Shown piece after piece: positions 3,798 through 21,577 of a stretch of 21,577 nucleotides of DNA. Numbering within the stretch: the first letter of the stretch is position 1; the number at the start of each line of letters is the position of its first letter. Source of the stretch: a virus; IMG/VR virus record IMGVR_UViG_3300031539_005212, positions 1 to 21,577 of that record, one strand, 5' to 3'. The position numbers and the translations under genes were made by a program. The notes beneath the pieces were generated by a model. That model made no database searches, had not been told where the DNA came from, and worked only from the letters and a program-made list of their open reading frames with translations.

Positions 3798-3827
3798 GAT
3801 CATTTCTCGTCTGTTGGTAGGTTGTTC

Positions 3828-3888: not shown

Positions 3889-3930
3889 CGCCGTGTACAC
3901 AAATCAAGCATGTCCAACAGGAGCAGCAAA

Positions 3931-4104
3931 ATGAAGAAGACACTGAAGCAGCCGCACAGTTACAGGGCCTACCCGCAAACCCACAAACAGTTGCGATATA
4001 TCTGCAAACAATTGAAGAAAAACGAGTCGGATACTATCAGCGGCCTGATCAGTAATGAGTACGATGCGATCAAGGCAAGCAAGGAAGGGGCAAAAACCAA
4101 ATGA
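3931..4104 (+). CDS. ribbon-helix-helix DNA-binding protein, probable autoregulator
   Basis: 57 aa from the ATG at 3931, chosen because AGGAG lies seven bases upstream; the ATG at 3910 has no such site. The layout is typical of the MetJ/Arc/CopG fold: a basic tail, a beta strand with alternating side chains (HSYRAYP, residues 9-15), helix 1 (about 16-29, THKQLRYICKQLK), a turn with NESD, and helix 2 (about 33-47, TISGLISNEYDAI). Such proteins dimerise, insert the two strands into the major groove and repress their own and neighbouring promoters. Position directly behind the divergent palindromic operator supports that role. An antitoxin-like role is an alternative, but no toxin partner is apparent next door. 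Confidence 0.7.
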   Translation: MKKTLKQPHSYRAYPQTHKQLRYICKQLKKNESDTISGLISNEYDAIKASKEGAKTK

Positions 4105-4421: not shown

Positions 4422-4423
4422 AT

Positions 4424-4861: not shown

Positions 4862-4877
4862 TCAACGGAGAGCAGAT

Positions 4878-5339
4878 ATGAAAGGCATCAATAAAGTTAT
4901 TCTTGTGGGAACCTGTGGGAACGACCCGGAGAGCCACACATTCCCAGACGGCAATATCGCTACCCGAGTGAGCATTGCCACCAGTGAATCCTGGAAGGAC
5001 AAGCAGACTGGCCAGAAGCAGGAGCGCACAGAATGGCACCGGTTGAGCTTTATAGACCGGGGCAACCGCAAGCTGGGCTCGATCTCCGGGGAGTACCTTA
5101 AAAAGGGTTCCAAGGTTTACGTCGAGGGGAAGCTCCAGACCAAGAAGTATCAGGGCAAGGATGGTTCGGATCGATACACCACTGAAATCATTGTCGACGA
5201 AATGCAGTTCCTCAGTGATCCCAGGGAGCAGACCGCAGCCCCCCAGGCCCAGAGCGCGACACCACCGCCCAGGCCAGCCGCCCCCACACCAGCACCGACC
5301 AAGGACTACGGCGACTTCGACGACAATATCCCGTTTTAA
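4878..5339 (+). CDS. ssb: single-stranded DNA-binding protein
   Basis: 153 aa, with GGAG eight bases before the ATG and 16 bases after the HNH gene. Residues 1-112 are a bacterial-type SSB OB fold: [65 protein letters not shown] and [14 protein letters not shown] flexible linker rich in P, A and Q (about 118-142) leads to the acidic tail DDNIPF, the standard hook for SSB-interacting proteins. It coats the 3' single strands made by the YqaJ nuclease and at replication forks. Length is normal for phage SSBs, and the call is firm. Confidence 0.96.
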
Positions 5340-5646
5340 CAAATAGTGGCTATCGTTTTTAGCAGGTTTTGTAAAGCCACTCAAATCAGAAAACCGCCGC
5401 CTGGGAACCCCAAGATAGTAGGGCGTAAAAGCACAGTTGGGGCGACTTGCCGCCGTTAGCGGCTCCAATAAATTACGGGGGCTTTGGGCAGACTGGAATT
5501 AAGGGGCCATTCTGTTCAGCGGGGGAATTCCCGCACCCCCACCTTTTTATGCCGGGACAAGCTGCCGTTGAATCCTTCAGCAAACCCTAATGACAGCCTG
5601 GGTATGTCCACCCTAACCGGCACCCTACAACAACGAGGAACTACCA
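5340..5646 (+). other. 307-base gap with several hairpins and no gene
   Basis: No convincing ORF is present. Inverted repeats seen include AGTGGCT (5345-5351) with AGCCACT (5375-5381); CCCCAA (5408-5413) with TTGGGG (5437-5442); GCCGC (5449-5453) with GCGGC (5459-5463); and GCGGG (5519-5523) with CCCGC (5530-5534), the last followed after ten bases by T5. The final hairpin could be a weak terminator for the ssb transcript, or the region could be a structured leader for the two genes that follow. No promoter with good -35 and -10 elements was found, and no known riboswitch was recognised. Confidence 0.4.
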
Positions 5647-6009
5647 GTGAATAAAGACAGCGCAATAAAGCTCAAGGCGTTTGCCCAAGAGATAGCAGAT
5701 CGGTTTAGCCACAAAGACAGGGAAAAGAACTTCAACAAAGAGGACTTTCATGTACATAAAATAACGGTGTTGTCGGACACAACGGCGTCCATTATTTATC
5801 TAAAAGAGCCTTCAAAGAAATTTGCGGCTGCCTTTATGTATTATGTGAATTCGTCCGGCGGGAATTGGCATTACTTTTTCCCTACCGACTCACATGTTAG
5901 CGGTATGCTTAATTTCAAAGACACGCTGCTTGCGGTAGAAAGGGCAAATTTCCCGAGAAACTTTGACGAGATAGTACAAGAACAGCAATTAACGGGGAGC
6001 GCCCAATGA
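5647..6009 (+). CDS. hypothetical protein, 120 aa, GTG start
   Basis: The start is the GTG at 5647, supported by GAGGA seven bases upstream. The N-terminal 40 residues are strongly charged and helical (SAIKLKAFAQEIADRF). The middle alternates hydrophobic and polar residues like a beta sheet (HKITVLSDTTASIIYLKEPSKKFAAAFMYYV), and aromatic residues follow in GGNWHYFFP. No signal peptide, membrane segment or catalytic motif is visible, and no family is recognised. It is coupled to the next gene by an ATGA overlap, so the two products may act together. Confidence 0.65.
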   Translation: MNKDSAIKLKAFAQEIADRFSHKDREKNFNKEDFHVHKITVLSDTTASIIYLKEPSKKFAAAFMYYVNSSGGNWHYFFPTDSHVSGMLNFKDTLLAVERANFPRNFDEIVQEQQLTGSAQ

Positions 6010-6329
6010 AACCAACCTATTTAGTGGTCACATCACGCAACTCCTGGGGAAAGGGAGTTACCGAGAAGGAGGCACTGTCCGAGGCGCACAAAAACCGCTA
6101 CTCGCCTACATTCTCCACCAACAACAAGCCCTATGAGGTAGCTATATGGCGCTTCCCTGCCCAGTTTGTAACGGGGTTCGGGTGCAATTCTATGGGCGGT
6201 GTCGAATGGGACTGGGTGGAAGGTCTGACAGAGAAGGTTAAGGACTTTGTAAGGCCGTCATTCCATATAGGAAACTACATCCGTGGGGCTCGCGGCGCAC
6301 TTACTCCGGTAGAACGGCCCAAAGACTAA
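6006..6329 (+). CDS. hypothetical protein, 107 aa
   Basis: The ATG overlaps the preceding stop (ATGA) and has GGGGAG about six bases upstream. The protein begins with a beta strand (TYLVVTSR), then a helix (VTEKEALSEAHKN) and further strands (PYEVAIWRFP, GGVEWDWVEGL), and ends with a basic tail. This resembles a small alpha/beta fold in which the query protein acquires residues by a strand-helix unit, but no named family is recognised. It is cytoplasmic, with no membrane segment. Confidence 0.65.
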   Translation: MKPTYLVVTSRNSWGKGVTEKEALSEAHKNRYSPTFSTNNKPYEVAIWRFPAQFVTGFGCNSMGGVEWDWVEGLTEKVKDFVRPSFHIGNYIRGARGALTPVERPKD

Positions 6330-6344
6330 TGATAGTCTCTGCCT

Positions 6345-6479
6345 ATGGATATAGGCAAAGCACTGTTCATTGTACTAATCGTGGTCGCGGGGGTTTCCTG
6401 GGGCGTCGGACTGACGCGCCCAGGGTGCTGCAAGCCGGCCGCACATGATATGCAGGACACCGGCCAACCTAATCGTTAG
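6345..6479 (+). CDS. possible 44-aa single-span membrane peptide
   Basis: The frame from the ATG at 6345 encodes MDIGKALFIVLIVVAGVSWG and continues to a TAG at 6477-6479. Residues 7-24 are a clean hydrophobic membrane span, and a GCC motif and short polar tail follow. No recognisable ribosome binding site precedes it, and it begins 15 bases after the 107-aa gene. Its stop codon overlaps the stop of the giant gene on the opposite strand by three bases, so the two operons meet tail to tail without a spacer. A hydrophobic stretch of this quality is unlikely in random sequence, but translation is not certain. Confidence 0.45.
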   Translation: MDIGKALFIVLIVVAGVSWGVGLTRPGCCKPAAHDMQDTGQPNR

Positions 6480-9400
6480 AAATACTGCCTCGTCTTTTCG
6501 TCAATCAGCATTGTCAGATCGTTCTTCATAACCTGCAACCTATCCATTTCCGCTCTCTTTTCCTGTGCTGTCATGTTTTGATCCATCACCACCTGGGACA
6601 TTTTGGCATTGATCTTTGACAGCTTCTTGGACACCTTGTTATAGACCCGACGCAGTGCGATCTTGTTGCCCGACTCAGCCTTGATCCGGTCGATAGCGTC
6701 TTGATCTTCCTCTTTGGCAGCAAGGCGAATATCGGCATAGGCCTCACTGATCTCATTCAGTCGATCGTAAAACAGTCCTATCTGCTTGGGATTGCGGTTC
6801 GGGCCGCTCCTGGTGAAGGCCTTGGCAATGGGGTATTCGGTCCAGCGCATAGCCGGATCGGGCGGAGCGCCGGCAATAGGCTCAGTGATGAACATATCGG
6901 CGCCGGCCAGTGTGGTGGCACCCAGCCAGCCGAAATAGCCCCGTACCAAGTGCTGTACCTGGACGGGTGACAACACCACCTTGCCCCAGGTTATTGTGTC
7001 CATGCCTTCCGATATTGCTATGGCGGTATCGCTCGTCCAGGCCCGCTTTCGGTTGACTGGGGACAGGTTACGCAAGCTCATACCCTCGATCGGTGATCCG
7101 GTAAACCAGTTGGTATCCATAGCTACTTCGAGCGCGGGTTTAACGGCCTGGGGCATGGGGTTGAAGGAGAATGTCTCGCCCAGGGTATGCAGGATGCGCT
7201 CCGCAAACAGTGATCCGTGCACATCATCGTTTACCAGTTGCTCAACAGCGCGTTCTGCCATTGAGGCAATTGCTCCCACCTCGAAGGGCCGGGGGATTCT
7301 CCACAGAATATCGGACCCAGGCACCTTAAACAGGTGATAGGTATCTCGCTCCCAGTCTTCGGTTTCCTTGTAATCATCGTCGTCACGCATCAACAGGTAC
7401 AGCAGGACGGACATGATTGAATAGGCACCCACTACCGCGAAGAACTGGCCTTTCTGGCCGGTGGTTCTGGCAGCCCGCGCCAGCTTGTCCAAGCCCTGCA
7501 AGCGGGCATTGAAGAATGGCACCACCTGGGCAATAAAGCGGATCGCCACAAACGACCCTTGCCGGGTGAAATCAAGGTGATCTCGAGCATTGAAGTTAGC
7601 CGCCAGCCGGCCACGGCCTCGCTCAATATCCTGGACGTAATTGGCCGCCCGGTTCACGTTTTCCAGTCGTGCCCCGAAATCCTGATATTTATCCCACCAT
7701 TTTTTGATCGCGTACCGGGTATCGAGAATAGTCTCCCGGTGAGTGCCTTTTTTGATCACATGCCGGATTACCTCCGGATCGGCGCCGTGCTGGTAGCCCG
7801 AGTCTCCAAAGATCGCACCCCCGGCCAGCATTTGAGCCTTTGTCTCTGCGTTCTCGCCCGTAGCCTTCAGGCCGCCAGCCAAGTTTTTGGCTACATTGGT
7901 CGACATATCGGTTACGGCGATCGCAGACAGGGTATCCCGGATCAGGTTTCTGATCTTGAATTCCGGGGATGCTGTGACGCCCACGGTAAGTGCCCGCTTG
8001 AAGGCCCTCATGGCCTGCATGACATAGCCGTTAAGCCCGTAGCTGTTGAGCATGGTCAGGGATTCAAGGACCAGCTTGCCCTCGGAGCTCTCGTCCAGCT
8101 CCCACCACTTCTCGACACCATTCTCACGGACATAGATCGCTTTCTTGCTCTTGCGCTTTTTCAATACCCGCTGTGCATACCCCAGGGTTTCGGCTGCTTC
8201 GAGCGCCTGACGGGCCGCTTGGTTGTTCAGGGATGCGTGGATTATATGATTCCAGTTGAGCAATGAATTACCCAGCAGATCGCCCAGCTTCTCCTTGCCG
8301 CCTTTCAGGTGCTTATAGGCCTGTTGCCGTATGAGCTGTGCGGTACCCCCTATCCTGGGGCCGTTCATTTGCTCACTTTCTTCCATGACCCGATAGAATG
8401 GCAGGTAGAAGCCTTCTTCCATCCAGCGATCGACCTCCTCCTCGTTCATCAGGCCGGTTTCGACTGCGATCCGGTTGATAGAGTCAGCCAGCTCCTCAAA
8501 TTCTACCCGTACCCGCTCAAACAGGGCCTCCCGGTCAGGATTCTCCGGAGTGTTCTGGTTCATAGCCTTCAAAACAGCAATATCGTTGTCGTCGAACAGG
8601 TTTTCTCGTTCTTCGGCCTTTAGTCTTGATGCCCGGTTGCCGGCAATCCACCACGTCCAGCGGTCAAGGTCTTCGCCCAGGGGCTCCAGAATCTCTTTCA
8701 GTGATTTCTTCGTGGTATCAATGCCTATGGCGCCGTCGTCCAGGAAAGGACGGCCGTGTTCAACTACAGCTTCGATGGTACCTATGCTGCTCTTGGTCAG
8801 GTGTCCCATCATCCAGGCACGATCGTCGCCCAGGATATCTTTGAAGCTGCGGTACTGGTCAACAAGGCCCTGGTGGAGCCGGGTGCCCATATTGGCCCGG
8901 AACCGATTCCACTTGCTTACAAAGTTCTGGACAGGGTGATTGACTCCAAAACCACCCTTATCCACTACAGCCTGTTCGGCCGGCGTCATATCCGTCGCGC
9001 CTGCTCGAGTACGTCTGTTTGATTTTCGTTCGTCAACAAACTTAACACCCTGTTCGGCATGTTCCTGTCTGTTGAATTCAAAGGCCTTATTGGCAAATAT
9101 GTAGTCAGCCGGGTCTTCGCCCATCACATCGATAATGTCCTGGGCGCCCATCAGTGCGGCGTCGAGCCATGACGGCGCGGTACCGGAAGGCATACCAAAC
9201 AGCTTGGTTTTCACCCAGTCCTTGAAGCGATTCCACAGGGTAGAGCCCTTGTAGGGGACCATCGACATAGCCAGTTGCAGCTCTGGATCGGTCAGTGCTC
9301 GAACAAAGAATTCGTCCGACTCCCACAAAGCCTCCCCGGTATACATACCCCCATACATGCCACCGTGGCGGAAGGCCTTTTTAAACTCGTCGTACAGATC

Positions 9401-12400
9401 GCGGAATTGGTCTAACGCATCGAGCGCCACAGGCTTTGGCATACCAAATAGCCGGTAGTTGCTCGAAAGACTAATATCAAGATCGCGGTACCGGGCCATG
9501 AGGATCGCGTGGAGACTTTCGTGCAGGAAGGTGTCATATCGCAGTCCGGACAGGATATTTTCAGGATCACCGGTATACAGACTGACGGTTACACCCCCGC
9601 GCTTGTTCAGGCCCGCCGTGCCGTGGTCAGGAGATTCCGGGTAGTCCCGGTCCACCACTACATCAATGCCCGTGTCCGGCATCAGGTCGAGTATGGTAGA
9701 GGCCAGTCCTCTCAGCTCTGCTGGGCCGGTCTTCGAGGCCAGTTCTATGGCGCCTTTCAGATCGTTGGCGTCAATCAGCTTCACAATGCTCGGTGACAGG
9801 TCGGTATTCAGTATGGCCGAACTAATGGGGCGAGCCTTCCCAACAGGAACCCCTTCCATATTCGGGGCGGAAAACTTGTTGCCCAGGGCCGCTGTAACCG
9901 CAAATCCAGCACCAACCTTCAGGAAATCGCGCCGGGTCAGGCCGGCAAACAGGCCGTTATCTGGCTTTTTGACCCGGTTGAAGTAAATACCGCTCTCCCT
10001 GCCCACCTCGAAGCCGGGATCGGTCGGCTGTGCGTAAGTAACATTCTTGGCCATTACCAGTGGCCCTACCTGTACAGCCAGCTCTGCGGCCACTACAGGG
10101 GCTCCTGTGGCCTTGTCGTAGAAGTAGGAATGACGGAAGGGATTCATACCAACCTGCACCCACTTGGGGTCAGACATGACCATATTGGCCATATCGTGAG
10201 CTCCCTGGGCGCCTACGTCCTGCCAGTCGCCATGTATACGGGCAAACGGCGCCTTGGCCGTCTTCCCAGTGGCAATTCCCAGGGCCGCTTTCGGGCTGGT
10301 GACAAACTCCACATTGCTCATTACGGCATGATTGCCATAGGCGATCGCATTTCCGCCACGCTTCGAACCATCGTGGACAGTCACTACCCAGGTGTCATAG
10401 AAGTCGTAGGCAGGAATATCCAGCCTGGAGGCCACTCGGGTACCCTGCTCGATATTGGTGTCTACGCCCAGAATATTGGCCGCCTTGTGCACTGACAGGG
10501 CCGCAGACATATCCGCGACGGTTGTCAGCTCGGGTACTTCCTCGATCGGCATGATCGGCATGAAGTTTTTGACGATCTTGTTATATTCTTCGGGGGACAG
10601 CTCACCAGCCTCCAGTTGCTTGGCGGCCACCTGGACTTCAGCCACACGCCCCCTGCGCTGATTGACCTTGTGCGCTTCACGCCACTCCACGATCTCGTCA
10701 GGTGTCAGCTTGGCTGCCCTGGAAATCCGGTTGTACAGGAAGCCGCCCATATCGGTCCTGCCGTAGGCTTCATCGATATCCCCCCGGTTGGCCGGGATCA
10801 CATCGATAGCATTCCTGACACTGATACTCATGCCACGGACGGTATCATCAAATCGATTGCCTTCCCCGCCGTCACCCTTGTACTCCTGGCCGTCAAAAAT
10901 AGTGGTTTCATCAATGCCCATAGTGGTGGCGCCAGTTTCAGCGTACCGGTTGATCAGAAGGACGGGGGCAGACTTAACACCTTGCTTCGCCAGATAGGCC
11001 ATTCTGTGCCGGCCGTTGTGGCCCATGATCTTGTATCCACCCCTGCCGTTCTTCTCAACAGCCAAGTAGGTGGTTTCAGGATCGGACAAATAATCACGAT
11101 ATTTGTCCGTCGATTCGGCCATGATGTTGTCGAAGCTATCCTCTGACCCGGTAGTGGCATACACGAAATCATAGGGATCGATGGTGGCGATCGCAGCTTC
11201 AACCCTGTGATTCTCCTCCAATTGCTTGCCCCAGTGGCTCCACATGACATTATCCAGGCGCCGGCCCGTCCAGTTTGCATGAGGGGCATTATCCTGTTTT
11301 GTGTAAATGGCGTTGGTCGCCCTGGACGCAGCCCGCTCCCCGCTGGCGAACACATCACCCATCTGGTAGACCATTGCAAGAATGTCGCCCTTACGCGCCT
11401 GGGAGTCTATCCAGCCGTACTTGGCCATGAGGCCACGGAACCATCGCAAAAAGTCATTCCAGGCCCGGCCAATGGGATTCATTCTGGTATGGGCTATCTT
11501 GGCGAAAAGCTCCTCAACCTGTTGGGCTACCGGCTTGTCGGCGTAGTCGCGCTTCACGCCTTCCCACAGCTTCCGCATTTCCGGGGTGGATTCTGCCATT
11601 TCCCTGACTTTGGACAAAACAGCCTTCAGCTCTGTCTCGTTAAACATTCCCAGGCCTTTGTGCACCAGCAGTTCTTCCTGCAAGGAGGCAACGGCATCAG
11701 CCTTGCTCTGGATGGTGTCGGCAACCATGTACAGGGTATCGGTGTTGGTATCGTAGGCCGCAGAGTAGTTATAGACCCCAGCGTGTTCCGCCGTGACTCC
11801 GGGCAGATCGGTAGCTGTGTCGACGATTTCCACGTTCACGTCATTCAGGCCCGGATACTTCTTCAGGAATTGCTGGACAATACGATCCAGGCTGGCTTTG
11901 CTCATTCCAGCGCCCGTGGTTTTGCGGGTGGTCCGGTTGTAACTGGTTCCTTTCTGGCCGGGTGGTGGGATATTGGCTATGTCAGCCAGAAATATCGCTC
12001 TATCCCCAGCAGAATCAAAGCTGAACGTGGGCGTACCCGGTACCTTCACCCCATCATTGGGCTTGTAGTAATTACGGAATCTCGCCCGGATGTACATGCC
12101 TCCTGACTTCTTGGCCAGTGAGCTGAACGTATCGTAGTTGTCGCCCATTTCCTCGGTCAGATTGACCACATACAAGGGCTTCCCGGTCTTGGTGTGCTTG
12201 GAGTCCATCGTGCGGGCGTTGAATCCCGCTACCCAGGGCTCCGGCTCCCGTGCGGGCACTCGGTCCTGCTCTCCCAGCGCTTCACCTGAATCAATCCGCT
12301 CCTGATCCGCCCGGACCTGGGAAGGAGGACGTGTTTCACGGCCGCCGGCGATCCGGGTTTCCTTGCGGGCACCCATTTCAGTGTCTTCAATACGGTCGAA

Positions 12401-15400
12401 GAAGTCATTGATATCCGTGACGTCAGTGTAATCACGGCTCTTTTGCTCCAGGGTGGCAGCAACAGCAGGATCGTTCTGGCGCTCAAGAATGATCACTCGG
12501 GTAAGGACTGAGGTGCCTGCCCGCTCGAAGGTCACTGCCGGCAACAGGATATTGCCCACCTGATAGACGCCTTTTGCCGCATCACTCTCCATCAGGGCTT
12601 CAAATTTCTTGTCAGCCGCAGGCCCGGTGGGTATCAGGGCCACGATCCGGCCGCCGTTGCGTAGGTGCCTCATTGCCAACTGGACGTGATCCCGCGCCTG
12701 GGAGCCGCCAGCCCCAAAGGGCGGGTTCATTATGATCGAATCGTACTTGTTGCTGATATGGTGATCCATGTAGTCGCCAGTGATCACCTTCCCATCAAAG
12801 TGCAGTGACAGCTTGCTTGATAGGTCGTCCGTGTACTCAATCGCAGTACCGTTGCTGTTCTCGGGGAACCATCGCGCAATCGCCCCGTGGCCGGCGCTGG
12901 GCTCCAGGAAGTCGTCTTCTGCCTTCGGATCGGCCCAGTGAACCATTTTCAGGCCCAGCGGTTCCGGGGTAGCAAAGTATTCGCTGTTTTCTCTGCCGGC
13001 AGACGATCGGCCCTTGCCCTGCTTTTTAGAGCCAAAGTAGTAGGTCTTGGCCATATCCCAGGGGGTTAGCACATTGGCATAGGCCGCATCGAGCTCCTTG
13101 CCGCCCTGGCCCTCGCCGTCGTGGCCCGGTGCGTAGGTGTCAGCCTCCTCATAGGCGTCAATAAAGGACTGCTTCAGCCCTCTGGCCGCTTCACCCAGGG
13201 CAAGGTTCTCTGCCGCGCTGGCCCGCTGGGCAATCGTGCTGGCAAACGCCACGCGCTCCCAGGCAGTACCAATGGTCAGATACCGGAATATGGCATCACT
13301 GGCCTGCCCGGTACGGTAGGTGCGGCCTTCGAGCTGGATCGAGGCGGTAGGCTTAACGGGCAGCCCGAGCTGCAAGGATACCCGCTGGTGCTTGCCGGTC
13401 GTGTCGTGCAGGGATATACCTTCCCGAGCCGCATCAGCCTGGGCAATAATGATATTCAGGGTGCCGTTCCCGTCCTTCTGGAATTCATCCTGCATTTTGA
13501 CCCGGCTTTTTGGGCTCACATCACCGTTGTAGATACCTGCTTCAGGGAATGCCGTCTTCAGCGTGTCAATCACAGACGGAATTTGGTCAAACGCATCAAT
13601 CAGGTCTTGAAACTTCTTGCTGAATTCAAGGAATGCCGGCCCCGGCTGGTTCTTTGCAATTCTGAAGGGGTTTATCGAGCCGCCTTGTTTGAAGTCGTGG
13701 AACACTGCGACCTTGCGGCCAAGCTCCAGGTGCTTCTTGATAATGGGGACCGCATCCCGAGCTTTTAGCGCTTCCAGGAAGTACATTCTGGCGTGATAGT
13801 TGAAGCTCTCTTTCAGGTAGTCATTAAGATCGCTAATCCCGTCCAGCGGGTTCTTCTGGCCGGCCTGATCACGGACCCATTGCAGGGTCTCGTCGACCCG
13901 CTTCCCAATAGCGTTTTCCACAAGAACAAATTTACGGTCATAGTCGAATTCACTATCCAGTACCCGGCCAGATAGGACGCCTTCATTTTTCAGCCATGTA
14001 TTGAACGCCCGCTGCATCAACCCTGTATCAACTTCGGCCTCCGGCGCCGTCAGCTTGTTGTAGCGCATTCGGTAGCCGAAATGCTGCATCATAAAGGATT
14101 CGTACTTGTCGGCTTGGTTGTACCGCTGTCCTTGTCCATCGCTATCCGCGCCCCAGTCGAACAGGAATTCATTGGCCCAGCGCACGGTCTTCTCATAAGC
14201 AAACGGGGTGGCACTGAGCAGTATGGATCGCGCCTTGCTCTCGTCGGATCGAGCGGCAATGATCTCTCTTTCCGGCTCTATCTGGGGACGCAGCCGGTCA
14301 TAGATATCCGTGGATTCCTTCTTCAGCGCATCAGCTCTTGCGTAGTCGTAGTCCTTTTTGGCTTTTTCGATCAGTTTCGGAATTTCATCCAGCCGTGCAG
14401 CGTCCTCCGGATTTTTGGCCATGACGCGATCCCACTCGGTACCGCGCTTATACGATAGTGCCCGGAGCATCTTCAGGGCTTTCGTGTGGTCGCCTTCCTT
14501 GCTGGCCGCAAGGTAATGGGCCTCGTCCATAACGAAGGCATCCCAGTCCCGCTTGATCAGCGCCCGGTTCACACCCAGGTTGGCGAAGGTTGTAACGACA
14601 ATTCCCCGGCCGGCATCCTGGGTATCGTTCAATTTTGTGATATTCAGCCCAAAGAACTGGGCGCCAGCCTTCATCCAGGCATCGGCAATAGGCTGTTTCG
14701 GGGCGGCAATCAGGATATTCTTTTTGCCGGCTTCCCACATACGCTTGATAGCACCCAGGCCGACAAAGGTTTTACCGGTTCCAGTGCCATTGGTAAACAG
14801 GACACCAAACCCATCAGGCTTGGATAGTCGTGCCTCCGCAAACGCCACGTCCTCGGCCTGCCCATCCGTGAGGAAGGGCATTTCGGCCTTGATCTTGGCA
14901 ACGATAGAGTTTGCTGCTTTTTCAGTGATCGGAGTTTGGTCTTCCGCAGGATCGATCCCGGCGGCCATAGCCAGTATGGTGTCAGCGACCTCCTGAACCA
15001 GCTCGATCTCAACATCCATCTGCTCGGCAATGTTGTTGACGGCCTGGGAAACAACGGCCTCGGTGTAGGTAGTCTCGCCCAGCTCGTCCATGACCATATC
15101 CAGCTCGATGATCATGTCGCGCTGGTCAGTCGTCAGGTCTTCATTGTTAGCATCTAACGGAGTTAGAGAGATTTCGGCAGGGGTTTTGTCAACGATTGAA
15201 TCAGCAGTCGGGTCTGCGCTTGGTTCAGCAAATAGTCCTTCTGCGCCAGCCAAGCTGCTTCCCCCGGTGTCAGTATCTCGGGCAGCATCATTCGCAAGTC
15301 GGTCTTTTTCGTCACTAACGCTTGTATCGCTGGGTTCTCCAAATAGATCACTCCCAGGCTGATCCACGGGAGTATCAAATCCTCCTCGTTGTCCACCTGT

Positions 15401-18400
15401 TTCGCCGCCAGTTTCATCAGCGCCTTGTCCGATTCCTCCTCGTCCTTCATCGACAAGATTTTCCTCAGTACCGGGTGCTGGCAGTTCTCCGCGATCTGGT
15501 TCCGTAGTTCCTGTGGTACGTTCATCATTAGCTGTGACCCTTTTCAGGTATTCCTCTATAGTAGCACCATCGTCCAGTTGAGACTGGTATTCAGCCATAT
15601 CTGGGTTCCAGCGCACATTCTCGTAAAATTGACGCAAATAGGGGCGTATCCATTCCCCGATTCCTTCCACCATTGCGACTGCGTAATCCGCAAATTTGAC
15701 CGCTCCTCCCTCAATATAGTAAGTGGCCGCTATCACTGCATCTACCGCATCTTCTGGGTCTATGCCCGATTTCAGCCGGGTTTGACGGGCCTTGATCCGG
15801 GCTATTGCCTCCTCGGCTTTGGTCTTCGTAACCACCTTGTTCTTGGTGCCGAAATCGGCAATCTGGTGCTTCTTGTCCGGGGCCGTCGGGGATTCCGCTG
15901 TTTTGTTTTTTTGCTCCTTAACCCATTCCAGAATCGACTGTGCCTGTGTTCTGGAAAGTCCCGGCTTTGATTCGAGTCCGTGCGCCCACTCGCCAGCCCT
16001 TGCCTCTATTTTCAATACAGCGGCGTCAAGTGCCCCCTGGCGCGTTGATTGCGGCCCGTTTTGAGTCCCAGCCCTTTGTATGTGGGCTTCGTTCACGGAA
16101 ATGCTGCCTTGTGAGTACCATCCGTCTGCGGCCTTCCAAAGAACAATAGCGGCACCGCCAGCCGGGTCATTGGGGTTCTCCCCCCATCGCGCTCCGGGTG
16201 TGCTTTCAATTACCTCGGGGTTTTCTTCGGTAGGTTCACTGATCTCTCCCGTAGTCTCTGGCTCTCCACCACCGTATTCCAGGCCTTCCCGGTACCCGTT
16301 CTCAATCAGAGTCCCAAGCGTTTTATCGGACTGGCTGCTACGGCTTATGGTTCCCAGGTAAGAGTTGTGGTTCTTGTAGTCCTGCTGGCCCTGGGCACCG
16401 GCTATAAACGCATCCACATAATCATCTTTGTACATGCGGTATGGATCGGCAGCATCGTTCTCCTCGACAATGGCGGTATACCGCTTGTCGGCTTCAATTC
16501 TGGCGGTCGCACCATCCACACGGGCAACGGTTGGCCTGTTGTCGTTGAACGCCTTTTCTTTGGCCTTTTCGACTTCACGCTCGGCTTCTAATGCCGCCCT
16601 TTCCTCTCGGGCAATGCGCTGGTTTTCAGCCGCTTCCTCGGGGGTTGGCGGGGTATATTTAGGGGTCGTTGCCTCTGTTTCAATGGGTTCGGCTGCCGGC
16701 TGTTCGGTCGTTTCCTCCGGCGTCACAAACTCGCCGGATTCGGAAATGAACGTCTTCCCGGTACGGTTGGCCCGCTCCTGGTCAGTTTCCTGGGGGGCAG
16801 TGTCTTTGGCGGGGACAACGCCCTTCGATAGGTCTTTCAAGCGTTTCAGCTCGGCCTGTGCAACTTCCTCGACCAGTTCCCGGCCGGCGATCGTGCTGGG
16901 CATATTCTCGACTTGCTTGTACTCGCGCAGCGCTTCAGCCAGATTCGGGGTCTTTATGGCAAGTTCGGCCTCATACCCAGTCGCGGGGGTGGTGGCCTCC
17001 ATGAGCTCGTCTATTTGCTGGGCAAGAAGCTCGATCCGCTGTCCCCATTCGTACCCGGTCCCCAGGGGCGCATATTTGGCCTTTATGGAATCTTCACCAA
17101 TAACATCAGGCTCCGGCGAACCAAACCACACCAAACGCTCTGGCAGGGCTTTCTTGGCATTCTCAAGGCGCTGCAATATATCAGGGTAGGATACCCAGTC
17201 AGGTAGGCGTATAACAGGATCGCTTCGCTTGCTCATTGAGAACATGCCGTACCGGTCGGCATGACCACCGTTATCCAGTTCCTTCGCGGCCCAGGAAGGG
17301 AGTTTCTGGACGGTCCCACCCAGCCAGCCGGCTATGTTGTCTATCGCCTTGCTGCCCCTCGATTCAGGCCCTACATATCTTGCAAGGGCTTTATTCGGGA
17401 TTGCAAAGCGGGTCACAGTACCAGACGCCTCATTGGCAAAGCTGGCAATAGCCACCTCAACGTCTTTGTCGACTGTCTCTCCCAGGACGATCTGTGTACC
17501 ACCCTTGGCTACCGGGTAGTGAGTACCCATCAGGCCGTCTTTCTCGATCTCCTCAAAACCCTTTGTTAGGTTGTTTCCGGCGAGTTTGAAGGCTGTTGGT
17601 AGACCTCGTTTCTTTTTGAGCTTACCGCGCTTGTGCCCGACTCGCTTGCGGAGGGCTGCTTCGGCATCGTCAAAGGCCGTTTGTGGATCGCTTGCCTCGA
17701 CTTCTCCGCGATCTTCAGCACTTGATTCACGTTCACCTTCATCTTCCTGCTCCTTCGCTTGTGCGTCCCTGGCCTGCTTGCGTAGGCGAAGAACAATCAT
17801 CATCAGGTCAGCCGCATCGGCCTCACCATTCTCGTCAACCGCTGCTTCCAGGGCGTCAGAGATATCTCTTGGATCAACACCGTCTTTCGCTATAGCCGCA
17901 TTGATCTGCATAGCGACCACACCGGGGATTAGCGGGGTATTCATGGCGTCTTCCAGCCACAGACCACGATCTTCCTCGGTCAGCTCCTCTACGGCCTCCA
18001 GGTTCTCGGCCTGGACGGCGTTGACAACATCCTGTTGGTGGGCAAGTTCCGCCACACTCATTGTGTTGCCGGGAGCCACCAGCTCCATCAGGTGCACTCT
18101 GGCTACCGCAGCGAAGGTATCATCCCATTGGTCGAATTCTTCATCGGCTTCCCGGCCCAGGGCGTCATTGACTGTTTTGCGGATAACGGCTTCAGAAAAC
18201 CCAGCCTCTACCGCCGCCCGGACTGCACCCGCCGCCAAAGGCAATTCCCGCTCCAGGCGATCGGCAGCAGACAGGCCAGCATGGTTATTGGCCGCGAAGA
18301 ATGCCGCCGCGAAGCCTGTAGGCGTTTCGCTTCGAGTGTTTTTGGTTTCAATGGACCCGCCGCCAGCATCCAGGAAGAACTTACTCCCCATAGCCGGATC

Positions 18401-21400
18401 AACGTGGTACTCGGGAAGATCGTTATTGAATTTCCCCCATAGGGCCGTTCCCTTGGTGTAGGGATCACCATAGGCACTGGGATCAAACAACATGCGCTTG
18501 TTGGGCAGTCCAGTCAGGTCTTCTATCGGCCCCACAGGGTTCTCGATCACCCAAAAACGGGGATCAAGGTTCTCGATCAAATCCAGGGTGTCAGCAACAA
18601 GGTCAATAGATTCGCGCATTGCACCGCTTTCTACTTTAGCGGCCTTGTGCCTGTTGCCGGCGTTGGTGAAATCCGTGCAGGGACAGGCAGCCAGAATGCC
18701 GTATATCTCCATATCCCCATAGCCGTTGTCGTCCAGCCATTGATTAGGATTCTTGGCAATATCCCGCACATCCATCGGATTCAGCCAGTCGTCCATTTCT
18801 TCTTCAGAAATAAGCCCCTGCTCTACGGCCTCCTCGGCGGTGGTGCCCTTCTGTATATCGATAGGAACCACGGTATACCCGGCGTCTGCCCAGGGCGAAG
18901 CCCATTGCCCGGTGTAATCGAACAGGGACAGGATCATCTTTTGGGAATTATCAATAGCCGGGTCTTCACGCTGATCAATCGCCTGATCTATCAGCACATC
19001 CCGGAACATTACCTGGGAATGAATCTCCAGCCAGTAACCCTTTGCCCAGCGCTGGGCGTCCACCCAGGCCAGCTCCTCGGGAGTGTAGCGCGGGGCGTTC
19101 TTGTCCTTGTTGTTAGGGTCAATCTTGCGGCCACGCTCCTTGGTGATAGTGACTTCTTTTGTCTGCTCTAAATCCTGCACTTTCCCGGCCAGCTTGTCGT
19201 AATAAGCCTGCCATGAATTCTGCGGTAAATGGTTGTACCGGCTGTTGTAATTGGTTTTCACCGTGTAGGTGCGGTCGTTGATCTTGGTTACAGTCACCTT
19301 GAGGACTTCCGGCAGACTCCAGTCGTCTATATCCGCCTGCGATCCTTTGGCGGTTTCCATCAGTGTTTCGCGTATAACAGGATCGGCCTCGATCTCCCAC
19401 TTGCCCTCGGAAACCTCCTTCAGCTCCGGGGCAGAAAGGTACTCGCCATTGTAGAATCTATGCTGGCGGTTCTTGTACTCGCCCTTCTGGGGCTGCTTGA
19501 ACAGGTCGCTACGGTCGACAATCCGTGTCCATTCGACGGGATCAATCGGCAGCAGGCTTACGCCCTGGGCCTCGGCTTCATCGATCTGGGCCTGACTGAT
19601 ACCCTCTGGCCATGACGGGGAAAACTTACCTGTTACAAGGTAATCAAGCTCGCCCTGGGTAGCCTTCTGGGCAAACTCACTACCATAGCCGTAGTGCCGA
19701 ACAATACCCTCCGGGGTGTCGTGCTTGGAATCAGATACAGGTCCGTCCTTATCCCATACTGTAGCCTGATACTTTTTGTCGCCGTTGACCGCCTTAGTGA
19801 CGGTATAGAACAGCGTTGCATCGTTGTTTCGGTATATGGTTGGGGTTGTTTCATCCAGGATATTAGCAACTATTTCAGCCTGCTTTTCTTCTGAATCTTC
19901 AGCAGGAGTTAGCCCCATATCGACAAGGCGATTGCTAAGTTCTTCGTCGGAGATAGGCGAAGTTTCGGCCTGTTGTGTTGGGAGTTCGCCGGAGATAGGC
20001 TTGGTCAGGGCTCCCGCTTCGAGCAGGTTCTTCAGGGCGTCCATGCTCAATGAGCTGGTTTCACCCACTACCCAGTTATCGTCGTAGTTCTCCTTGTAGG
20101 CCGCGATCGCTTCAGCTTCAGTGTTGAAGCCCAGCATGACCTTGTGTTCATCAAAATTGCCCTCTCCGTCCACCTGATCGATAACAACGGCCAGATCGGA
20201 TTCAAGATTCTCACCCACAAACACGTCAACATGCTCACCGTCAGCGCCTTCGGTGCGCTTGATGTAGCCATAGTGGCTCTGCATTTCGTGTTCCCAGGCG
20301 GTTCCGTCCTCGTCCTTGCCGGTACGATAGGAGCCTTTCGGGTTCTCTATGGTGATATCCAGCCCTTGAACCTGGACGTGGCCCTTTTTGTAGTTCCCGG
20401 CCTCCTGCTGGCCCTCGGTGGGCTCTGGCAGGTTATTCAGCGGGCTGGTGGCAGATTCATTGGCCTGCTGGTCAAATAGATTGTCCTGACCATCGGCTGG
20501 CTTGGGCGCAGTGGCACCTACCTTATACAAGCCACTCTGAATCCCTTTGGCTATCTGCTCTGCATGTGCATCAGATATATTTAGATATCCCTCTGCTGCC
20601 AAACGCATAGACATAGCCATTCCGCTCGGATAATCCCTATCCGGCCACAGTTCATCTATCTTTTCGGCTATTTCCTCATTCGTTTTGTCTTTGGCAGGCT
20701 GGTCAAATAGATTGTTCTGGCCACGCGCTTCAGCTTCATCCACGGCAGCGGTGGAGCCAGTCATTACAAAGTCTTCAGGGCTCGGTACTTCGGCGGGCTC
20801 GGGCGCCGGCTTGTTCGCCTCGGCCTCGGCCGCCAGTGATTCTTCGGTTTGGGTTTCGAGGGCAAAAGCATCAGTCGTGCGATCGTCTTCCCGTGCAGCT
20901 TGGGCTGCGGCAGTGGTTTCTTTAATATCGGGATTTGTTCTTGGCCCCAGACTCATTGGCTCAACAGCAATGAAGTTAGTGTCCTCATTCGCCATAATGT
21001 CCCGTACCATCTGTTCCGGGATTTTCAGTTGAAACGCTATTTCCTTGGGCTGTATGCCTGGGTAGGTGTCCATTAAATGAAAAACGTCATTCTCAATACC
21101 GTATGGTTCGACGATTTCCGATACAGGCTTATCCTCGGAAAGGCCAGGTTTGGTTTTTACCTCGAAGGTGTCTTCCGCAATCAGCTCGGCGCGTAGTTTG
21201 GGGTTTGTCGCCCAGCTATCCAGGGCGTCAGATTCGGCCTGCAATTCCTTCAACCGGACCTTGATCGCTTCCGGGTCTTTCACGTCCACGCCCAGGGCCT
21301 TGGCTCTGTCAGGACGGTTTACCGCACCCTTCACGGCATTGATGTTTTCACGAATATCACGCTTCTTGGCCGCTACCCGCTTGGCTATCGCCTTGGCAGC

Positions 21401-21577
21401 CTTCAGGGCGGTTTCATCGAACCCGAACATATCAATGGATTCTGTGGAACCATCCTCCAGGGCAGCCATAGCCTTGACGGCCTGCATGGTGCCCACTACT
21501 TCATCGATGGACCGCCCTTCCTTGGCCTGGGAGATACCCAGGGTTTGCAGGGCCTCGTCATTTGGGGCTGCTTTCGC
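6476..21577 (-). CDS. giant polyvalent protein: DarB-like helicase, two methyltransferase-like modules, ParB-like, zincin and LPD38-like modules (5' partial)
   Basis: A single uninterrupted frame of 5033 codons, still open at the right window edge; the GTG at 21496 is internal, because 27 further codons (AKAAPNDEALQTLG...) precede it without a stop. Numbering here is from that GTG. Order: DdrB/ParB-associated helical tail (to about 105), linker, pyrophosphatase-like (372-476), C5-methyltransferase-like (850-1072), helical modules, SF2 helicase (2205-2740), N6-methyltransferase-like (2835-3010), a GKPLYVVNL module (about 3090-3172), ParB-like (3415-3516), an RHSYFYD module (3650-3830), Tat-like motif (3854-3877), HExxH zincin (3905-4100), LPD38-like C-terminus (about 4130-4905) and a terminal coiled coil. 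Such polyvalent proteins, of which P1 DarB is a smaller relative in part, are thought to enter the host with the DNA and counter its defences. The overall class is firm; the packaging and injection role is inference. Confidence 0.9.
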   Translation of the reverse strand, partial: AKAAPNDEALQTLGISQAKEGRSIDEVVGTMQAVKAMAALEDGSTESIDMFGFDETALKAAKAIAKRVAAKKRDIRENINAVKGAVNRPDRAKALGVDVKDPEAIKVRLKELQAESDALDSWATNPKLRAELIAEDTFEVKTKPGLSEDKPVSEIVEPYGIENDVFHLMDTYPGIQPKEIAFQLKIPEQMVRDIMANEDTNFIAVEPMSLGPRTNPDIKETTAAAQAAREDDRTTDAFALETQTEESLAAEAEANKPAPEPAEVPSPEDFVMTGSTAAVDEAEARGQNNLFDQPAKDKTNEEIAEKIDELWPDRDYPSGMAMSMRLAAEGYLNISDAHAEQIAKGIQSGLYKVGATAPKPADGQDNLFDQQANESATSPLNNLPEPTEGQQEAGNYKKGHVQVQGLDITIENPKGSYRTGKDEDGTAWEHEMQSHYGYIKRTEGADGEHVDVFVGENLESDLAVVIDQVDGEGNFDEHKVMLGFNTEAEAIAAYKENYDDNWVVGETSSLSMDALKNLLEAGALTKPISGELPTQQAETSPISDEELSNRLVDMGLTPAEDSEEKQAEIVANILDETTPTIYRNNDATLFYTVTKAVNGDKKYQATVWDKDGPVSDSKHDTPEGIVRHYGYGSEFAQKATQGELDYLVTGKFSPSWPEGISQAQIDEAEAQGVSLLPIDPVEWTRIVDRSDLFKQPQKGEYKNRQHRFYNGEYLSAPELKEVSEGKWEIEADPVIRETLMETAKGSQADIDDWSLPEVLKVTVTKINDRTYTVKTNYNSRYNHLPQNSWQAYYDKLAGKVQDLEQTKEVTITKERGRKIDPNNKDKNAPRYTPEELAWVDAQRWAKGYWLEIHSQVMFRDVLIDQAIDQREDPAIDNSQKMILSLFDYTGQWASPWADAGYTVVPIDIQKGTTAEEAVEQGLISEEEMDDWLNPMDVRDIAKNPNQWLDDNGYGDMEIYGILAACPCTDFTNAGNRHKAAKVESGAMRESIDLVADTLDLIENLDPRFWVIENPVGPIEDLTGLPNKRMLFDPSAYGDPYTKGTALWGKFNNDLPEYHVDPAMGSKFFLDAGGGSIETKNTRSETPTGFAAAFFAANNHAGLSAADRLERELPLAAGAVRAAVEAGFSEAVIRKTVNDALGREADEEFDQWDDTFAAVARVHLMELVAPGNTMSVAELAHQQDVVNAVQAENLEAVEELTEEDRGLWLEDAMNTPLIPGVVAMQINAAIAKDGVDPRDISDALEAAVDENGEADAADLMMIVLRLRKQARDAQAKEQEDEGERESSAEDRGEVEASDPQTAFDDAEAALRKRVGHKRGKLKKKRGLPTAFKLAGNNLTKGFEEIEKDGLMGTHYPVAKGGTQIVLGETVDKDVEVAIASFANEASGTVTRFAIPNKALARYVGPESRGSKAIDNIAGWLGGTVQKLPSWAAKELDNGGHADRYGMFSMSKRSDPVIRLPDWVSYPDILQRLENAKKALPERLVWFGSPEPDVIGEDSIKAKYAPLGTGYEWGQRIELLAQQIDELMEATTPATGYEAELAIKTPNLAEALREYKQVENMPSTIAGRELVEEVAQAELKRLKDLSKGVVPAKDTAPQETDQERANRTGKTFISESGEFVTPEETTEQPAAEPIETEATTPKYTPPTPEEAAENQRIAREERAALEAEREVEKAKEKAFNDNRPTVARVDGATARIEADKRYTAIVEENDAADPYRMYKDDYVDAFIAGAQGQQDYKNHNSYLGTISRSSQSDKTLGTLIENGYREGLEYGGGEPETTGEISEPTEENPEVIESTPGARWGENPNDPAGGAAIVLWKAADGWYSQGSISVNEAHIQRAGTQNGPQSTRQGALDAAVLKIEARAGEWAHGLESKPGLSRTQAQSILEWVKEQKNKTAESPTAPDKKHQIADFGTKNKVVTKTKAEEAIARIKARQTRLKSGIDPEDAVDAVIAATYYIEGGAVKFADYAVAMVEGIGEWIRPYLRQFYENVRWNPDMAEYQSQLDDGATIEEYLKRVTANDERTTGTTEPDRGELPAPGTEENLVDEGRGGIGQGADETGGETGGQRGGFDTPVDQPGSDLFGEPSDTSVSDEKDRLANDAARDTDTGGSSLAGAEGLFAEPSADPTADSIVDKTPAEISLTPLDANNEDLTTDQRDMIIELDMVMDELGETTYTEAVVSQAVNNIAEQMDVEIELVQEVADTILAMAAGIDPAEDQTPITEKAANSIVAKIKAEMPFLTDGQAEDVAFAEARLSKPDGFGVLFTNGTGTGKTFVGLGAIKRMWEAGKKNILIAAPKQPIADAWMKAGAQFFGLNITKLNDTQDAGRGIVVTTFANLGVNRALIKRDWDAFVMDEAHYLAASKEGDHTKALKMLRALSYKRGTEWDRVMAKNPEDAARLDEIPKLIEKAKKDYDYARADALKKESTDIYDRLRPQIEPEREIIAARSDESKARSILLSATPFAYEKTVRWANEFLFDWGADSDGQGQRYNQADKYESFMMQHFGYRMRYNKLTAPEAEVDTGLMQRAFNTWLKNEGVLSGRVLDSEFDYDRKFVLVENAIGKRVDETLQWVRDQAGQKNPLDGISDLNDYLKESFNYHARMYFLEALKARDAVPIIKKHLELGRKVAVFHDFKQGGSINPFRIAKNQPGPAFLEFSKKFQDLIDAFDQIPSVIDTLKTAFPEAGIYNGDVSPKSRVKMQDEFQKDGNGTLNIIIAQADAAREGISLHDTTGKHQRVSLQLGLPVKPTASIQLEGRTYRTGQASDAIFRYLTIGTAWERVAFASTIAQRASAAENLALGEAARGLKQSFIDAYEEADTYAPGHDGEGQGGKELDAAYANVLTPWDMAKTYYFGSKKQGKGRSSAGRENSEYFATPEPLGLKMVHWADPKAEDDFLEPSAGHGAIARWFPENSNGTAIEYTDDLSSKLSLHFDGKVITGDYMDHHISNKYDSIIMNPPFGAGGSQARDHVQLAMRHLRNGGRIVALIPTGPAADKKFEALMESDAAKGVYQVGNILLPAVTFERAGTSVLTRVIILERQNDPAVAATLEQKSRDYTDVTDINDFFDRIEDTEMGARKETRIAGGRETRPPSQVRADQERIDSGEALGEQDRVPAREPEPWVAGFNARTMDSKHTKTGKPLYVVNLTEEMGDNYDTFSSLAKKSGGMYIRARFRNYYKPNDGVKVPGTPTFSFDSAGDRAIFLADIANIPPPGQKGTSYNRTTRKTTGAGMSKASLDRIVQQFLKKYPGLNDVNVEIVDTATDLPGVTAEHAGVYNYSAAYDTNTDTLYMVADTIQSKADAVASLQEELLVHKGLGMFNETELKAVLSKVREMAESTPEMRKLWEGVKRDYADKPVAQQVEELFAKIAHTRMNPIGRAWNDFLRWFRGLMAKYGWIDSQARKGDILAMVYQMGDVFASGERAASRATNAIYTKQDNAPHANWTGRRLDNVMWSHWGKQLEENHRVEAAIATIDPYDFVYATTGSEDSFDNIMAESTDKYRDYLSDPETTYLAVEKNGRGGYKIMGHNGRHRMAYLAKQGVKSAPVLLINRYAETGATTMGIDETTIFDGQEYKGDGGEGNRFDDTVRGMSISVRNAIDVIPANRGDIDEAYGRTDMGGFLYNRISRAAKLTPDEIVEWREAHKVNQRRGRVAEVQVAAKQLEAGELSPEEYNKIVKNFMPIMPIEEVPELTTVADMSAALSVHKAANILGVDTNIEQGTRVASRLDIPAYDFYDTWVVTVHDGSKRGGNAIAYGNHAVMSNVEFVTSPKAALGIATGKTAKAPFARIHGDWQDVGAQGAHDMANMVMSDPKWVQVGMNPFRHSYFYDKATGAPVVAAELAVQVGPLVMAKNVTYAQPTDPGFEVGRESGIYFNRVKKPDNGLFAGLTRRDFLKVGAGFAVTAALGNKFSAPNMEGVPVGKARPISSAILNTDLSPSIVKLIDANDLKGAIELASKTGPAELRGLASTILDLMPDTGIDVVVDRDYPESPDHGTAGLNKRGGVTVSLYTGDPENILSGLRYDTFLHESLHAILMARYRDLDISLSSNYRLFGMPKPVALDALDQFRDLYDEFKKAFRHGGMYGGMYTGEALWESDEFFVRALTDPELQLAMSMVPYKGSTLWNRFKDWVKTKLFGMPSGTAPSWLDAALMGAQDIIDVMGEDPADYIFANKAFEFNRQEHAEQGVKFVDERKSNRRTRAGATDMTPAEQAVVDKGGFGVNHPVQNFVSKWNRFRANMGTRLHQGLVDQYRSFKDILGDDRAWMMGHLTKSSIGTIEAVVEHGRPFLDDGAIGIDTTKKSLKEILEPLGEDLDRWTWWIAGNRASRLKAEERENLFDDNDIAVLKAMNQNTPENPDREALFERVRVEFEELADSINRIAVETGLMNEEEVDRWMEEGFYLPFYRVMEESEQMNGPRIGGTAQLIRQQAYKHLKGGKEKLGDLLGNSLLNWNHIIHASLNNQAARQALEAAETLGYAQRVLKKRKSKKAIYVRENGVEKWWELDESSEGKLVLESLTMLNSYGLNGYVMQAMRAFKRALTVGVTASPEFKIRNLIRDTLSAIAVTDMSTNVAKNLAGGLKATGENAETKAQMLAGGAIFGDSGYQHGADPEVIRHVIKKGTHRETILDTRYAIKKWWDKYQDFGARLENVNRAANYVQDIERGRGRLAANFNARDHLDFTRQGSFVAIRFIAQVVPFFNARLQGLDKLARAARTTGQKGQFFAVVGAYSIMSVLLYLLMRDDDDYKETEDWERDTYHLFKVPGSDILWRIPRPFEVGAIASMAERAVEQLVNDDVHGSLFAERILHTLGETFSFNPMPQAVKPALEVAMDTNWFTGSPIEGMSLRNLSPVNRKRAWTSDTAIAISEGMDTITWGKVVLSPVQVQHLVRGYFGWLGATTLAGADMFITEPIAGAPPDPAMRWTEYPIAKAFTRSGPNRNPKQIGLFYDRLNEISEAYADIRLAAKEEDQDAIDRIKAESGNKIALRRVYNKVSKKLSKINAKMSQVVMDQNMTAQEKRAEMDRLQVMKNDLTMLIDEKTRQYF
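6782..9107 (-). other. giant protein: C-terminal LPD38-like region
   Basis: Residues about 4130-4905. Diagnostic-looking patterns are FKIRNLIRDTLSAI, RFIAQVVPFFNARLQGLDK, LWRIPRPFEVGAIASMAERA, FNPMPQAVKPALEVAMDTNW, and HLVRGYFGWLGATTL. A single hydrophobic stretch at about 4684-4703 (FFAVVGAYSIMSVLLYLLM) could enter a membrane. The family is known as a C-terminal module of virion-delivered polyvalent proteins; assignment is from memory of the motifs. Confidence 0.6.
9197..9784 (-). other. giant protein: HExxH zincin metallopeptidase-like module
   Basis: Residues about 3905-4100. The motif HESLH (3992-3996) follows DTFLHE-type helix. Downstream WESDEFFVRALTDPELQ holds acidic residues that could supply the third zinc ligand. 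A strand region with VVVDRDYPESPDHG precedes it. Polyvalent proteins often carry such a peptidase, which might cut the protein itself or a host target. Confidence 0.65.
9866..9943 (-). other. giant protein: internal Tat-signal-like motif
   Basis: Residues 3852-3877 read GLTRRDFLKVGAGFAVTAAL followed by GNKFSA. This matches the twin-arginine consensus (S/T)RRxFLK exactly and is followed by a weakly hydrophobic, Ala/Gly-rich stretch typical of Tat h-regions. It lies about 3850 residues from the nearest visible start and directly before the HExxH domain. Confidence 0.6.
10949..11254 (-). other. giant protein: ParB-like module
   Basis: Residues 3415-3516 contain the MGHNGRHRMAYL motif (R3496 and neighbours), after a DETTYLAVE-type strand and before VKSAPVLLINR. 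This is the ParB-like core that binds or cuts DNA or uses nucleotide triphosphates in different families. Position after the helicase and methylase fits polyvalent proteins. Confidence 0.65.
12467..12994 (-). other. giant protein: N6-adenine methyltransferase-like module
   Basis: Residues 2835-3010. The SAM-binding motif I is FLEPSAGHGAIARWF (2863-2877), and motif IV is IIMNPPFG (NPPF at 2924-2927). A RNGGRIVALIPTG strand follows. Both catalytic motifs are intact, so it is probably active as an adenine methylase. No separate target-recognition domain is evident. Confidence 0.85.
13277..14884 (-). other. giant protein: superfamily 2 helicase module (DarB / strawberry-notch-like)
   Basis: Residues 2205-2740. 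Walker A is GTGTGKT (2237-2243), motif II DEAH (2324-2327), motif III SAT (2428-2430). The C-terminal RecA-like lobe has KVAVFHDFK (about 2595), then IIAQADAAREGISL and the motif VI-type QLEGRTYRTGQAS (2721-2733). All ATPase motifs look intact. It sits directly before the N6-methyltransferase module, the same pairing as in P1 DarB. Confidence 0.88.
15163..15528 (-). CDS. candidate overprinted gene nested in the giant gene, 121 aa
   Basis: A 121-codon ORF lies on the same strand as the giant gene but in another frame, from ATGATG at 15528 to TAA at 15163. Its frame is closed by a TGA 18 bases upstream of the ATG, so the size is well defined. AAAAGGG lies about nine bases before the first ATG, a moderate ribosome site. 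The product looks like an ordinary folded, helical protein (MMNVPQELRNQIAENC... then ILTPGEAAWLAQKDYLLNQ), while the giant protein over the same bases is a Gly/Asp/Thr-rich disordered linker (about 1990-2112). By hand count 88 of 121 codons end in G or C here, against 37 of 123 in the giant frame. No family is recognised. It could be a live nested gene or a fossil of a gene absorbed by the giant frame. Confidence 0.45.
   Translation of the reverse strand: MMNVPQELRNQIAENCQHPVLRKILSMKDEEESDKALMKLAAKQVDNEEDLILPWISLGVIYLENPAIQALVTKKTDLRMMLPEILTPGEAAWLAQKDYLLNQAQTRLLIQSLTKPLPKSL
15542..15934 (-). other. giant protein: helical module before the helicase
   Basis: Residues about 1855-1985 hold ARIKARQTRLKSGIDPEDAV, VIAATYYIEGGAVKFADYAVAMV, then GEWIRPYLRQFYENVR. 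This pattern recurs next to strawberry-notch/DarB-type helicases in phage and plasmid proteins. No catalytic residues are seen; it may be a scaffold or DNA-contact domain. Confidence 0.5.
18281..18949 (-). other. giant protein: C5-cytosine-methyltransferase-like module
   Basis: Residues about 850-1072. Motif I reads SLFDYTGQWASPWADAG followed by VVPIDI. The catalytic loop is AACPCTDFTNAG, with the PC dipeptide at 939-940 giving the nucleophile C940. The ENV-type motif VI appears as WVIENPVGPIEDL. The end reads TGFAAAFFAAN, like motif IX/X. It is short, about 220 residues, with no obvious target-recognition domain, so specificity may be relaxed or the module may have another role. Confidence 0.7.
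20069..20383 (-). other. giant protein: inorganic-pyrophosphatase-like module
   Basis: Residues 372-476 contain LDITIENPKGSYR, MQSHYGYIKRTEGADGEHVDVFVG and the following FDEHKVMLGF and EAEAIAAY patterns. These match the pyrophosphatase-like (InPase) domain described in polyvalent proteins. HYGYI and the D/E/H-rich GADGEHVDVF segment would carry the metal-binding acids. The catalytic role in this protein is unproven. Confidence 0.7.
20468..20492. repeat. 25-bp direct repeat, left copy
   Basis: CTGGTCAAATAGATTGT followed by cCTGaCCA. It matches the copy at 20699-20723 at 23 of 25 positions, with a perfect 17-base core. It encodes QDNLFDQ in the giant protein (residues 337-343). The two copies are exactly 231 bases (77 codons) apart, so reading frame is kept. 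Confidence 0.85.
20699..20723. repeat. 25-bp direct repeat, right copy
   Basis: Same 17-base core as the copy at 20468-20492, followed by tCTGgCCA. It encodes QNNLFDQ (residues 260-266). The segment between the copies uses AT-rich codons such as ATA, CTA and AAT more than the flanking gene, as if inserted as a module. Confidence 0.85.
21182..21577 (-). other. giant protein: DdrB/ParB-associated helical tail (partial)
   Basis: The visible N-terminal end reads IDEVVGTMQAVKAM, then IDMFGFDETALKAA, AKKRDIRENINAVKGAV and GVDVKDPEAIKVRLKELQ. This helical pattern is the segment that commonly follows a DdrB-like ParB nuclease domain in phage polyvalent proteins. The nuclease itself, if present, lies beyond the right edge. 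Assignment is from memory of the family pattern. Confidence 0.55.

Follow-up and report, generated by a model that had tools for sequence, protein, structure and literature searches.

Can the bases that encode a linker in a giant phage protein also carry a complete second gene? The question is raised by IMG/VR virus record IMGVR_UViG_3300031539_005212, whose 21,577 bases (the window, analyzed here at full length) consist mostly of one open reading frame (ORF) on the minus strand. In the linker immediately ahead of the helicase encoded by this giant gene lies a nested ORF of 121 codons. An earlier note, made from the letters alone, had observed that the codon bias of this nested ORF surpasses that of the frame covering it, and had offered two readings: an overprinted gene whose translation begins at an internal ribosome site, or a small former gene that the giant frame later read through. 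Taken as a whole, we think it highly likely that the nested ORF is a real gene, started internally and laid over the linker in frame +1; its small product may be an obligate companion of the giant protein. The three features concerned are the following.

6476..21496, minus strand: giant polyvalent gene, 5006 codons, with its frame open up to the window edge at 21577
15163..15528, minus strand: putative nested gene, ATG start, 121 codons plus stop, frame +1 of the giant gene, predicted compact seven-helix protein
15167..15529, minus strand: giant-frame reading of the overlap, a disordered linker in the AlphaFold2 prediction (mean predicted local distance difference test score, pLDDT, 54.4; predicted template modeling score, pTM, 0.13) with no invariant column among related loci

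Codon pattern and selection in the two frames

An open frame of this length is not remarkable alone, because 18% of the shuffles of the giant protein's synonymous codons preserved an open nested frame in the window. The case therefore depends on comparison, namely on the inverted codon bias and on conservation across related loci. Over the overlap, the G+C content at codon positions 1, 2, and 3 is 0.73/0.56/0.31 in the giant frame (37/121 at position 3) and 0.56/0.30/0.72 in the nested frame (88/122 at position 3); the whole giant gene has 0.61/0.42/0.63. This recount agrees with the hand counts of the earlier note, which had described the pattern as the opposite of that of a chance shadow ORF. 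The description holds, since the other long out-of-frame ORFs inside the giant gene retain the giant's codon pattern.

The predicted structures of the two products differ as well. From 47 homologues, AlphaFold2 predicted an all-helical protein of seven helices for the nested product (121 amino acids, ~14 kDa) with a pLDDT of 95.1 and a pTM of 0.86, vs the low scores listed above for the giant-frame reading of the identical bases, which was modeled with 29 homologues. That reading is rich in G, D, E, T, and S, and its composition and low pLDDT bear out the earlier characterization of the giant-frame product as a low-complexity linker.

Selection was examined by the codon position at which related loci differ. 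In the +1 overlap geometry, the wobble base of the nested codon is position 1 of the giant codon, and the wobble base of the giant codon is position 2 of the nested one. Across 15 close pairs, giant position 3 takes 53% of the differences in the upstream flank and 59% in the downstream flank vs 22% inside the overlap, where 53% fall on giant position 1. For the window compared with its two nearest relatives, L046 and L054, the share is 0.28 and 0.23 inside the overlap and 0.43 to 0.50 in the flanks. Of 1653 pairs, 1650 had a higher amino acid identity in the nested frame than in the giant frame; the pairs are not independent of one another but are uniform in direction, and the linker had zero invariant columns. 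The earlier note had named a decaying nested frame beside a conserved linker as the observation that would speak against a gene; the opposite was seen, with higher nested identity and a peak of differences at the nested wobble base. In addition, the codon usage of the gene fits the nested frame better in 44 of 58 loci. Judged by these substitution patterns, purifying selection acts in the nested frame. Within the overlap, selection in all likelihood maintains the small protein, with the giant frame serving there only as a flexible linker, and we regard the nested ORF as almost certainly protein-coding.

Homologues and translation start

A search with tblastn using the window product gave weak full-length matches in three genomes, all of them in frame +1 of giant genes whose annotation reads DarB-like, LPD38, or hypothetical. 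With further members as queries, matches reached expectation values (E) down to 9e-19, and full-length nested homologues turned up in a Comamonas plasmid as well as in Vibrio, Pseudomonas, Serratia, Klebsiella, and Ruegeria phages, in each case in frame +1 inside a giant coding sequence; among these phages are Parlo of Serratia and Skulduggery of Pseudomonas fluorescens SBW25, the latter with its nested ORF at 33577-33966 of NC_070827. Further homologues came from contigs of bacteria and from many contigs in IMG/VR. Searches by profile across IMG/VR and bacterial genomes enlarged the set to 62 loci with 60 non-redundant members; the 58 members with full context are the basis of all start, codon-usage, and stop counts, and the nested frame is +1 in every one of them. 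Thus, a homologue search of the 121-amino acid product against phage and plasmid sequences, which the earlier note had put forward as a check, yielded through tblastn and profiles 129 distinct nested proteins in total, forming 118 clusters at 90% identity. A single-sequence scan of viral proteins with the window product returned no match because the window copy is divergent, and alignments used as queries recovered the homologues. For bacterial contigs, the first profile scan gave no match and the second gave eight loci. Six nested members (L214, L235, L191, L190, L193, and L199) are highly divergent, with E from 1e-9 to 2e-3, and several of them are longer; they are possibly a second subfamily.

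The nested product had no match above threshold in Pfam, PHROGs, NCBIfam, or PDB sequences, where scattered weak matches were inconsistent across members. By structure, the best Foldseek E was 2.5 in PDB and 1.2 in BFVD, and the best VIA Z among the Foldseek candidates was 3.1, none of which is convincing, although this is not proof that the fold is new. Annotations were inspected for seven distinct phage and plasmid loci, and the nested ORF was absent from all of them; a literature search, which covered open-licence papers, found no paper describing a nested gene in such giants. Gene callers discard an ORF wholly contained in a longer one, which is why the family was overlooked. With more than 100 diverged copies and a wobble position that switches cleanly between frames, a same-strand nested gene is well supported at the level of sequence, and on this evidence the nested ORFs constitute a new family of overprinted phage genes. 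Such a family indicates that a giant polyvalent protein can house a second gene in a disordered linker.

The start codon is ATG in 58/58 members, and 46/58 carry a Shine-Dalgarno (SD) core at −18 to −4, vs 593 of 5529 other out-of-frame ATGs (10.7%). Two features of the window belong to this region.

15538..15544, minus strand: candidate Shine-Dalgarno sequence AAAAGGG, 9 nt upstream of the nested ATG (core AAGGG, duplex −4.5 kcal/mol)
15544..15546, minus strand: TGA in the nested frame, 5 codons upstream of the nested ATG

In 31/58 members, the 20 codons ahead of the ATG include a nested-frame stop, and in 12 members a stop immediately precedes the ATG. These stops favor internal initiation and disfavor entry by frameshifting. 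Together, the invariant ATG, the frequent SD core, and the selection in the nested frame support the first reading of the earlier note, a gene overprinted within the polyvalent gene and served by a ribosome site of its own, and we consider it very probable from these signals that the nested protein is translated by internal initiation.

Two explanations would do without a separately started gene. The +1 frame could be open by accident, in a low-complexity linker poor in stop-making codons; the shuffled frame is indeed open in up to 83% of trials in some GC-rich relatives (the 18% given above being the value for the window), and the giant gene contains further long out-of-frame ORFs. However, those remaining ORFs follow the giant's codon pattern, several AT-rich loci are open despite a probability of being open of ≤0.005, and chance cannot yield a conserved ATG with an SD, a shift of the wobble position, an aligned folded protein, and presence in all 104 giants described in the next section. 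A chance shadow ORF is refuted by the codon-position test, and we leave it next to no probability. Alternatively, a programmed ribosomal frameshift from the giant frame might attach the helical domain to the N-terminal part of the giant as an alternative C-terminus, and the nested ORF, being in +1 and terminating ahead of the helicase, would allow such a truncated variant. The stops upstream of the ATG, which in the window lie 5 codons away, stand against this, as do the conservation of the ATG and SD and the fact that homology starts at the ATG; we judge frameshifting to be very improbable.

Linkage to a fused helicase

The covering gene is a polyvalent protein, with the following domains in one giant product.

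20021..20413, minus strand: InPase domain of polyvalent proteins (E 3.5e-50)
14489..14860, minus strand: helicase N-terminal core (Pfam ResIII), which immediately follows the linker and whose relatives define the nested-gene loci
13154..13465, minus strand: Helicase_C_4, the C-terminal domain of Strawberry notch homologues (E 1.5e-7, above the Pfam cut-off)
12632..12844, minus strand: MTS methyltransferase domain (E 3.5e-5, above the Pfam cut-off)
6827..7381, minus strand: LPD38, large polyvalent protein associated domain 38 (E 1.9e-36)

To quantify co-occurrence, loci were retrieved by the adjacent Strawberry-notch-type helicase domain, blind to the nested ORF, as the best 80 helicase matches from each of two scans, and a hidden Markov model (HMM) of the nested product was run on all six frames. 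Of the 114 unique helicase loci, 104 have the helicase within a giant ORF and 10 have it as a stand-alone protein (~850 amino acids in the two cases with a complete ORF). The nested ORF was present in frame +1 in 104/104 fused-helicase giants, 103 by HMM and one (L230) by eye, vs 0/10 stand-alone helicases in the six-frame HMM search. The linkage to one helicase class is therefore complete within the tested set, and the nested gene accompanies the fusion, not the helicase per se. Distances between nested products and distances between helicases were correlated (r = 0.78). Extrapolating from these sequences, every phage with such a giant probably makes an unrecognized companion protein.

Three loci depart from the usual arrangement. 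In a Desulfamplus metagenome-assembled genome (MAG; L051), an intact nested ORF, accompanied by an SD-like stretch, occurs where the giant frame is closed, with no helicase on the contig; this copy (L051:115-895) lies in a ~650-bp gap that separates copies of a 35-nt CRISPR-like repeat (115-149, 180-214, 861-895), and may represent capture, domestication, or an assembly artefact. In a beta-proteobacterial MAG (L053:1-2000), the giant frame has stops within the overlap and no helicase was found; the nested ORF there is intact and its product extends further at the C-terminus. In Delftia acidovorans NBRC 14950 (L050:7696-8611), the nested ORF is intact and the giant frame continues into other sequence without the usual helicase, which is present in a close relative (L060). 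As single contigs, these cases are only suggestive.

Function of the small protein and origin of the overlap

We propose the following mechanism. The nested gene would be wholly overprinted in +1 on the linker that joins the N-terminal polyvalent part of the giant to its Strawberry-notch-type helicase-methylase part, and ribosomes would initiate internally at the nested ATG on the giant-gene mRNA, producing an all-helical ~14-kDa protein alongside the giant. The small protein would then bind the giant or its helicase-methylase half and aid its loading into the head, keep it inactive until delivery, or help its ejection. A helper in packaging, holding, or delivery is judged the most likely role because the DarB-like giant of phage JC1 is carried in the virion (PMC9144972) and DarB of P1 requires helper proteins for head entry (PMC9024508). 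By this analogy, we give the small protein about an even chance of being a companion of the giant. Such a companion would offer a direct handle on the loading and control of phage proteins that are thousands of residues long.

Among known systems, the P1 Dar helpers Ulx and Hdf (PMC9024508) are similar in that a small protein is encoded beside the helicase-methylase DarB; Ulx is listed as aiding DarB localization (PMC9024508), and ulx directly follows darB. Ulx is, however, a separate gene, whereas the nested gene is embedded in the giant. The nested HMM gave no match to Ulx even unfiltered, so the two are not homologous and the nested product cannot be assigned as an Ulx homologue; the same HMM found no nested member in the P1 darB region. 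The embedded class of Rz1 inside Rz in Bcep22-like phages (PMC9144972) is likewise a short gene within a longer one, read in a different frame, that has a start and a product of its own. The Rz1 and Rz proteins are cooperating partners, as we infer for the nested product and its giant, but here the covering gene is polyvalent and runs to thousands of codons, the nested product belongs to no known family, and the giant frame is merely a linker in the overlap. With the polyvalent proteins described previously, of which a few contain Strawberry-notch-like ATPases (PMC5512222), the covering giant shares its InPase, LPD38, helicase, and methylase domains; that description does not contain the word "overlap", and the nested gene is not described in it.

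The nested product might instead act alone, for example in anti-defence or host takeover, with late expression as the sole reason for sharing the giant gene. Small size and a helical fold are typical of anti-defence proteins, and both the solo copy with a closed giant frame in the Desulfamplus MAG and the intact copy beside the broken giant frame of L053 are consistent with independence. Anti-defence genes are usually patchy and mobile, though, and the nested gene is strictly linked to one helicase class, in its fused form only, with no homologue located elsewhere among 50,697 phage records. We consider a solitary role unlikely and prefer a product tied to the giant.

Several points weigh against this preference and against the nested gene more generally. 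The giant frame matches the gene's codon usage at least equally well in 14/58 loci, the SD of the window copy is weak (AAGGG only, strong in most relatives), and the AlphaFold2 model of the nested product was built on 47 sequences only. The co-occurrence counts come from top-ranking helicase matches, as described above, and the loci are related, so that counts and P values lack independence. The Delftia locus retains its nested ORF though the usual following helicase is missing. We infer the expression and function of the nested gene from sequence, and the companion role depends on linkage and analogy.

As for how the overlap arose, the small gene may be the older element, once situated between two genes that later fused, so that the giant frame came to run across it as a linker. 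This would be compatible with the overprinted, internally started gene favored above. The nested frame is predicted to be folded and has the better codon-usage fit in most loci, the giant frame in the overlap is disordered and lacks an invariant column, and stand-alone helicases exist. On the other side, prolonged selection on the nested frame alone would produce the same codon pattern, and no locus was found with the N-terminal part, the small gene, and the helicase as three separate genes. In the helicase tree, the stand-alone forms fall in one group (support 0.998) that also contains the fused L232, which is consistent with loss too. We rate the greater age of the small gene at slightly short of an even chance. 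With respect to the second reading of the earlier note, the word "former" does not stand, as the gene is still under selection; the giant frame may have been extended over a small gene that was already present. A more doubtful extension is that virion-borne helicase-methylase giants depend on a +1 companion because they were fused across a living small gene and have been inseparable from it since; if true, loss of the small protein would break the packaging or control of the giant. L232 itself, a fused giant that carries the nested ORF, groups close to the base of the clade formed by the stand-alone helicases (support 0.892-0.998).

Downstream of the giant gene, at 753-6329, the window encodes a RecE-like exonuclease and an Erf-like annealing protein on the minus strand and an HNH endonuclease and a single-stranded DNA-binding protein (SSB) on the plus strand. 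Two small plus-strand ORFs, at 5647-6009 and 6006-6329, had no match in PHROGs.

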